Shown here one piece after another: positions 18,946 to 20,358 of a stretch of DNA of 64,000 nt. How positions within the stretch are numbered: the stretch's first letter is position 1; every line of letters begins with the position of its first letter. This DNA comes from Mesorhizobium sp. Z1-4 (lineage in GTDB: Bacteria > Pseudomonadota > Alphaproteobacteria > Rhizobiales > Rhizobiaceae): the NCBI RefSeq assembly GCF_004000235.1, contig NZ_RCIO01000002.1, positions 823,501 through 887,500 on the forward strand, in the 5' to 3' direction. Below the pieces are notes generated by a model. It was not told where the DNA came from, did no database searches, and worked only from the letters and a program-made list of their open reading frames with translations. The position numbers and the translations under genes are program-made.

Positions 18946-19049
18946 GACGAGGTGGATATGTGCTCCGCCAGTCTCCAATGTCATGCCGGTATCGCCGTGT
19001 AATGGAATGCTCTGCGGCTGACGGTTTGCGTCAGGCCTCCCTCCCGGTC

Positions 19050-19147
19050 GTCATCCCGGACTTGATCCGTGATCCATGCCTGAGCGGCCGTGAACTGCAC
19101 AAAGATCACGGAATGGGTCCCGGACAGGCTTCGCCTTCCGGGATGAC
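19050..19147. repeat. Palindromic element (GTCATCCCGGA family), copy 1
   Basis: The ends GTCATCCCGGA (19050-19060) and TCCGGGATGAC (19137-19147) are perfect inverted repeats. Inside are TTGATCCGTGATCC and CACGGAATGGGTCCCGGACAG. The same inner block is found in copy 2 at 20177-20298. It looks like a small non-autonomous mobile or structural element. Confidence 0.65.
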
Positions 19148-19191
19148 GCGCGTGGTTTTGGTGTTCGCAACCGGGCCCGGCTGCTCACCCA

Positions 19192-19999
19192 TCACGACGT
19201 ATCGAGCGCGTCCAACGCCAGGGCCTGGCACTCGTTCAATATGTCGTCGACCATGTGGTTGGGGCGTTTCCTCTTGCCCGGCGGGTGGCCGATGCGCAGC
19301 GGCGAGACGCGGCGGATACCAGAACCACCCCCAGCCTCTCCCCGCAAGGGGGAGGGGAAATCCGCCCCTCTAGCCCTCCAGCGAGCAAGGCGGCGTGCCT
19401 CGCGCGGCAGGTTGGCGAGTGCGCGGCGCGACGAAAGCAGGCGGCGGCAGAGGCCCGTCACATCGACCGGGTCGTCGGGGGAAAAGACGGGCTTTTCGGG
19501 AATTGGCGCCGGCTCGGTGACGCCCACCACGCAGATGCGCGGCATGAATTTCGAAGCGTGCCTCGGCGGTTCGAAACGGAACCGCTTCAGCGGGTCGAGC
19601 AGCGGGAAGGCCGGGATGCGAAGGCTTTGCCCCCACTCCGCCTCGCTTTCGCTCGGCACCTCTCGTTGCGGGGAAGAGGAAGGGGGCCAGGTCCTGCCGG
19701 CCGGACGCGGCACGACATCCTGCGCGGCAATCACGACGAGACGCCGGATGGCGGCTTCGGCGGCGCGCAGGATGCGCAGCGCATAGGTGTGCAGGTGGCG
19801 CGGGAGGAAGTGGCGGCAATCGGCAGTCGGCAATAGGCAATCGAAAACACCATTGTCGCCAGCCTGTGCTGAGCCCGACTGCCGACTGCCGACTGCCTAT
19901 TGCCGACTGCCGGTCTTCAAGCCCGGCAAGCGCGAACAGCGCCGCGAGGATGCGCTGCAATGCCTCGCGGTTGCGTCTGATTGCCAGCGTCCAGTCCAT
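19192..19999 (-). pseudogene. Conserved hypothetical gene split by a frame shift in heptamer repeats
   Basis: The N-terminal part (MDWTLAIRRNREALQRILAAL) and the C-terminal part (LPRHLHTYALRILRAAE, PVDVTGLCRRL, RRLARWRAR, PLRIGHPPG and DEVL-like ending ALDALDTS) resemble one conserved Hyphomicrobiales protein of unknown function. They lie in different frames. The frame changes within the two heptamer arrays at 19815-19911. Removing one 7-base unit joins the frames without a stop, giving about 266 residues. A further repeat copy (CTCTCCCCGCAAGG type, about 19335-19357) is inserted in frame near the C-terminus. The ATG at 19999 follows GAGGTGGA. It is either a decayed gene or one switched off by repeat length. 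Confidence 0.66.
19815..19911. repeat. Two facing arrays of heptanucleotide repeats
   Basis: Array 1 (19815-19842) has four 7-base units: GGCAATC, GGCAGTC, GGCAATA, GGCAATC. Array 2 (19877-19911) has five units in the opposite sense: GACTGCC three times, TATTGCC, GACTGCC. A 34-base spacer separates them. The arrays lie inside a conserved gene, and each unit changes the reading frame by one. Confidence 0.88.
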
Positions 20000-20176
20000 T
20001 TCCACCTCGCGTTGACCTGCGGGGATTGTCGGAGCGGTTTGGCGAGCGGGGATAGAAAAGTGGGTGGTGAGTGGGCAATGGTGAGCGGGGGCACGGGGTT
20101 AGCGGGGGTGAAAATTTCTCCAGTGCCGAATCTGTCCACGCGGCGTCAGCGAGTGGTAGGAGCCACCACCACCGCC

Positions 20177-20298
20177 GTCGTCCCGGACGAGCCGCGCAGC
20201 GGCGATGATCCGGGATCCATTCCGGAACGGTTGTAATCTCGGCAGGAGTCACGGAATGGATCCCGGACAGCCTCGTTTCACTCGGCTTCCGGGATGAC
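20177..20298. repeat. Palindromic element (GTCATCCCGGA family), copy 2
   Basis: The left end is GTCGTCCCGGA (one mismatch) and the right end TCCGGGATGAC. The inner block CACGGAATGGATCCCGGACAG matches copy 1 with one difference. This element and the next fill much of the gene-free stretch 20000-20593. Confidence 0.65.
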
Positions 20299-20358
20299 GC
20301 GCCGAGGTGGCGAAGCTCGTTACTGGCCCGGCTCTGAGGCTCGGACCCAGAGGCATGG

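Follow-up and report, generated by a model that had tools for sequence, protein, structure and literature searches.

The intervening sequences of ribosomal RNA are excised by RNase III at the transcript level, and the Rickettsia palindromic elements (RPE) are palindromic repeats that protein genes carry in frame where an insert is tolerated. In Coxiella burnetii, the intervening sequence (IVS) of the 23S rRNA carries an S23p open reading frame (ORF) preceded by tandem heptamers, the number of which varies among strains (PMC4990558). Heptamers are also found in the Beggiatoaceae, where the TAACTGA repeats form direct arrays and S23p is not mentioned (PMC4679880). A literature search, with preprints and most subscription papers outside its scope, found S23p and heptamers joined only in the account of the Coxiella 23S rRNA IVS (PMC4990558), and turned up no paper that makes the bracketing of S23p genes by heptamer arrays a general rule. 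The locus described here lies in a stretch of 64,000 nucleotides from Mesorhizobium sp. Z1-4 (the window). It is likely a gene-less heptamer hairpin in the tolerant linker of a protein gene, of the same kind as the elements that bracket S23p/IVP genes, with one extra GGCAGTC unit breaking the frame of its host gene.

The window holds two facing arrays of 7-bp units, for which a preliminary description made from the sequence had counted four and five copies. The tandem repeat program TRF agrees, with 4.3 units at 19814-19843 (the 3' array in the gene) and 5.4 units at 19875-19912 (the 5' array), both at period 7. The arrays are inverted copies of each other, with an 87% match over 30 nt that rises to 96% complementarity in a core of 23 nt, and as single-stranded RNA the region folds at -63.4 kcal/mol (z = -7.1). 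What had been presented as two separate features are in fact both arms of one hairpin of ~99 bp (19814 to 19912), with a short loop and no gene of its own, placed in the linker that joins the host gene's two halves; similar hairpins are seen in the homologues L004, L006, and L008. No other lag-7 runs scoring at least 10 are present in the 64-kb window, and among 40 Markov-shuffled windows only 15 runs of this kind were found altogether, the highest of which scored 13, where the better of the two arms scores 19. An Rfam scan of 18.0-22.3 kb returned nothing credible, its single match being at chance level and under its gathering score. Another dispersed palindromic repeat (TCCGGGATGACG, or GGATCC.TTCCGGA type) has copies on either side of the host gene, at 19049-19148 and 20162-20302.

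The host gene is on the minus strand, with its ATG at 19999 and its stop at 19192, and its halves are in different frames. The N-terminal part (MDWTLAIRRNREALQRILAALFALAGLE; 19916 to 19999, 28 codons) begins with the MD..AI.R.R.AL.R start that is conserved in all homologues. The C-terminal part (FLPRHLHTYALRIL... to ...ALDALDTS and the stop; 19192 to 19809, ~206 codons) is in another frame; it also reads FLPRHLH...DTS, shares 82% identity with L002, an intact homologue, and contains no further stop or frameshift. The earlier proposal that these are the halves of one split protein is supported, and the homologues in the same genus are intact. The proposal that this is a conserved rhizobial protein was too broad, since a BLAST-level protein search found homologues in the window's own genus only (4 of 41 genomes, 1 of 36 genera). 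A search of the host protein against Pfam and NCBIfam matched no family. The gene is multi-copy, with several paralogues per genome, and all the homologues found have open frames, a retention that is possibly overstated because the protein search partly pre-selects for open frames. The genome's own paralogues are L007 and L010; in L007 (G000:C24:53778-54416), a linker segment (SGASGLPYPGAG) occurs in duplicate around an N that may be an assembly join.

When the homologues are aligned, conserved blocks are joined by linkers that differ strongly in length and content. For example, the linker after 'ALAGL' contains a similar heptamer hairpin in L004, L006, and L008, where it is read in frame. Sequences that look like other repeats are found there in L002 (SPHPEALAEGEP), L008 (HPELVEGS), and L011 (HPEPVEGS), and L003 has a short stretch that is unrelated. 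A second dispersed palindromic repeat (CTCCCCGCAAGGGGGAG, at 19338-19354 and found at 16 places in the genome with up to 2 mismatches) is read in frame in a C-terminal linker of the host gene itself. Since the linkers hold hairpins, other repeats, and a second palindrome in frame, this fast-changing, genus-specific gene tolerates repeats as long as the frame is kept. In this the hairpin resembles the RPE, as a palindromic repeat at a tolerant site inside a gene; by their description, the RPE differ in that the element here has 7-bp arrays, variable loops, and a link to the S23p/IVP gene. The preliminary description had proposed to look for relatives that lack the arrays and keep a different linker, and the picture is mixed: L004, L006, and L008 retain the hairpin in frame, and L002, L003, L005, and L011 have a different linker without such a hairpin. 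Both L002 and L003 lie in synteny with the window. The host gene may have carried its hairpin ancestrally and not gained it by a new insertion.

When one unit is omitted on paper, the halves join without a stop into a protein of about 266 residues, as had been reported. L008 reads SAIGSRQSEPAQADGSILDCLLPTADCLTLPRHL through its hairpin, and the window minus one unit gives the matching SAIGSRQSGSAQAGDNGVFDCLLPTADCRHFLPRHL. Compared with its closest hairpin-bearing homologue, the window has one additional GGCAGTC unit (+7), and three identical adjacent GGCAGTC units are present at 19877-19897 (minus strand), one of which is likely the extra one by comparison with the in-frame L008. The simplest reading is that the +7 arose by the gain of a single unit through slippage, a cause already named in the preliminary description, and it agrees with the extra unit lying among three identical neighbors and with the intact homologues holding the hairpin in frame. 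An assembly or sequencing error that added one unit too many to the hairpin-forming repeat is an alternative, given a draft genome in 29 contigs and the proneness of tandem repeats in a strong hairpin to such errors, but arms of 30 and 38 bp in an element of ~99 bp fit in one short read, and we regard an error of this kind as very unlikely.

The rest of the host gene bears on the age of the frame break. Its core dN/dS is 0.20 against L002 and 0.13-0.28 against other close homologues, and of the polarized core changes, 5 synonymous and 3 nonsynonymous fall on the branch of the window and 5 and 4, respectively, on that of L002. Neither more disabling changes nor relaxed constraint, the marks of a pseudogene, were found in the rest of the gene, and because it shows no decay, the frame-breaking event is probably recent. 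One could also consider an ordinary fixed pseudogene, whose frame was lost once through the gain of a heptamer and whose decay is still to come. The frame is broken in the one sequence at hand, and the paralogues L007 and L010 mean that the loss may be tolerated. Against this, there is no second lesion, and the core substitutions look as constrained as those on the L002 branch. A fixed loss of this kind would look the same as a very recent event, so this explanation overlaps with the one preferred here; on balance it is a serious but doubtful candidate.

A phase-variable gene, in which the gain and loss of units in the arms reversibly switches the protein on and off in the population, would make use of the same anatomy. 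Like the slipped-strand contingency loci, the host ORF holds a repeat unit that is not a multiple of three, so that the 7-bp units at 19814-19843 and 19875-19912 shift its frame; the remaining gene is intact and constrained, congeners differ by whole units in array length at other loci, and Coxiella strains carry 2 or 3 heptamers in their IVS (PMC4990558). Unlike those loci, the arms in the window are short, imperfect, and inverted, and come without observed switching. The tract has only 3 perfect adjacent units, and the host gene belongs to a multi-copy, fast-changing family without an assigned function. Four homologues lack such a hairpin, which argues that the arrays are not maintained as a switch. 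The alleles, compared only between species, are in frame in L004, L006, and L008 and out of frame in the window. Reversible switching of the host gene is possible, but a phase-variable gene in this sense is improbable.

The kinship of the hairpin with dispersed hairpins around S23p/four-helix-bundle genes was missed in the preliminary description. Elsewhere in the genome, the window's unit forms strong arrays only on contig C24, where two of them face each other at a distance of ~450 bp (locus C24:82900-83380). Between them is a gene for a four-helix-bundle protein of the PF05635 '23S rRNA IVP'/TIGR02436 family (E = 8.5e-36 for PF05635), which is related to the solved structure 2GSC. Models of Avd, the accessory protein of diversity-generating retroelements, score below their cut-offs on this protein (NF033474, 22.1 bits vs 80; bAvd, 24.4 vs 40). 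The S23p ORF between inverted repeats, absent in the window hairpin, is therefore present elsewhere in the same genome. Twelve IVP genes were found in the 41 relatives, and in all but one or two of them heptamer arrays are present on both sides, with unit sequences that differ.

The association was followed in larger samples. A scan of GTDB gave 80 IVP loci, which are the closest relatives of the query, mostly at two sites, and so do not amount to 80 independent events. Lag-7 scores of at least 12 were seen upstream in 30 and downstream in 54 of these loci, other lags giving zero or one, and in none of 1,494 background windows from the same loci; by eye, facing arrays are present in nearly all. 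The complementarity of the left and right flanks beats every shuffle in 80 of 80 loci, at 20.6 within a locus compared to 13.0 between loci. Mapped on the protein tree of the 80 loci, site labels switch 7 times and unit types 11 times. In an independent sample of Pseudomonadota, IVP is found in 52 of 299 genomes, and lag-7 arrays occur upstream in 9 and downstream in 16 of 29 loci, with zero at other lags except the multiple 14. Ten IVP loci on cyanobacterial plasmids have mean lag-7 scores of 21 and 23, compared to 4-5 at other lags; L214 and L215 among the plasmid loci are without heptamers, one of them with apparent 8-bp units, and the arrays of L213 are direct rather than inverted. The phylum-wide and cyanobacterial samples are more independent evidence than the 80 GTDB loci.

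In 72 of the 80 GTDB loci the IVP gene lies between nuoC and nuoD (50) or between the ATP-grasp and alpha-E genes (22), and it is co-oriented with its neighbors in all 72 that could be classified. The orientation of the flanking genes was taken from conserved motifs of nuoC, nuoD, ATP-grasp, and alpha-E, as longest-ORF calls are unreliable in GC-rich DNA. On the cyanobacterial plasmids, L210 and L213 have the order cas6-IVP-cas4, and L214, seemingly with 8-bp units, has cas10-IVP-cmr3. These four-helix-bundle genes, which lie within CRISPR-Cas operons and have short tandem arrays, facing or direct, look like passengers, though they could be mistaken for CRISPR-linked genes. Also, the right arms of the congeneric IVP loci L176, L179, L183, and L189 range from about 30 to 90 nt with the same unit, which suggests that unit number changes fast. 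G034, which also has an IVP gene, carries long near-perfect direct CTGCCGA arrays of ~200 bp and ~80 bp in the same orientation, ~1 kb apart (G034:C6:539691-539891 and 540857-540938).

These loci share with the Coxiella IVS a PF05635/TIGR02436 protein, stem-forming inverted repeats around its gene, and tandem heptamers whose number varies between strains. They differ from it in that both arms are heptamer arrays and in their location, which is not a 23S rRNA gene but a protein operon (nuoC/nuoD, ATP-grasp/alpha-E, CRISPR genes). The window hairpin differs further, being gene-less and inside a protein gene. Intergenic tandem heptamers at many loci are a feature in common with the short tandemly repeated repetitive (STRR) heptamers of cyanobacteria and the TAACTGA repeats of the Beggiatoaceae (PMC4679880), but those have been reported as direct arrays with no gene attached to them, and here they are inverted pairs that bracket the IVP gene.

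The same element also exists without its gene where relatives hold it whole. Among six members of the genus, the ATP-grasp/alpha-E site is empty in G002 and G004 (15 and 29 bp), holds a full element (497-508 bp) in G000, G001, and G003, and has a 186-bp gene-less hairpin in G005 (L168, G005:C5), with arm units unlike those of its sister species; a Pfam search of G005 found no IVP gene. Gene-less hairpins with the window's arm unit number ~12 in G003 and one or two each in G001, G004, G008, and G034, and both of those in G001 are in homologues of the window's host gene. A gene-less hairpin of the opposite polarity was found in 0 of 41 genomes. Five of the 6 genomes with such hairpins have an IVP gene, compared to 10 of 41 overall (p = 0.0018). 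The link between the two is weak, because it concerns one heptamer sequence in related genomes, and hairpins of other units occur in genomes without IVP. At one further orthologous site (L216-L221), most members of the genus have a hairpin, with different heptamer units, and G001 has none; the arms match best within species in most, with G005 below its shuffles. For these hairpins, long residence seems to fit better than recent transposition.

The window hairpin could instead be a miniature inverted-repeat element (MITE), non-autonomous and mobilized in trans. In favor of this are the terminal inverted repeats, the ~12 gene-less hairpins in G003 that share its arms, and a site at which forms with and without the gene both occur. 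Gene-less hairpins at different places have loops unrelated in sequence, however, so the copies have no internal sequence in common; the matching ends surround an IVP gene and not a known transposase; and hairpins persist at orthologous sites. Nor is a target-site duplication established, none being obvious when empty and full ATP-grasp/alpha-E sites were compared at one locus. A MITE is thus unlikely. The REP/BIME elements with their RAYT transposases are similarly dispersed palindromes with a linked small protein, but REP arms are not heptamer arrays and the four-helix-bundle protein linked here has no transposase domain. We also considered whether the window hairpin derives by internal deletion from the IVP element of its own genome, with the interior preserved, and dropped this because the gene-less loops are unrelated. 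For the same reason, common descent with the IVP-bracketing hairpins rests only on arm sequence, polarity, and architecture. A shared mechanism of origin for the two is what we infer.

In the preferred reading, then, the ~99-bp gene-less hairpin would be a passenger in the hypervariable linker of a gene restricted to the genus. It would belong to a wider kind of element in which inverted 7-bp arrays, with a locus-specific unit and matched arms, bracket an S23p/IVP gene inside operons; in some cases the gene is lost or absent and the hairpin alone stays. Slippage may add and remove whole units in the arrays, and a template-switch, copying, or selective process may hold the arms matched. By analogy with the action of RNase III on rRNA intervening sequences, the stem in the transcript may insulate or excise the insert, and the heptamer stem may be a target of the IVP protein. 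A single step of slippage, the extra GGCAGTC, would have thrown the window's host gene out of frame. A broader proposal, which we put forward tentatively and at somewhat less than even confidence, is that across phyla the S23p/IVP genes are, as a general rule, the loop cargo of a heptamer-armed hairpin. Its units would turn over between species as its arms stay complementary, implying dedicated maintenance or copying, perhaps with the IVP protein acting on the stem, and gene-less versions would persist in operons and protein genes, where slippage shifts the frame.

The S23p/four-helix-bundle genes are widespread, and one structure has been solved (2GSC). In the literature searched, which took in few subscription papers and no preprints, we could not find the bracketing of S23p/IVP genes by heptamer hairpins in operons across several phyla described before. 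Its near-constant presence inside operons provides a testable nucleic-acid partner for the S23p proteins. The link to S23p also offers one explanation for the heptamer arrays that have been separately reported in cyanobacteria, Beggiatoaceae, and Coxiella. The window is a case in point for how a single unit, in a hairpin that lies within a coding linker, is enough to break a frame or restore it.
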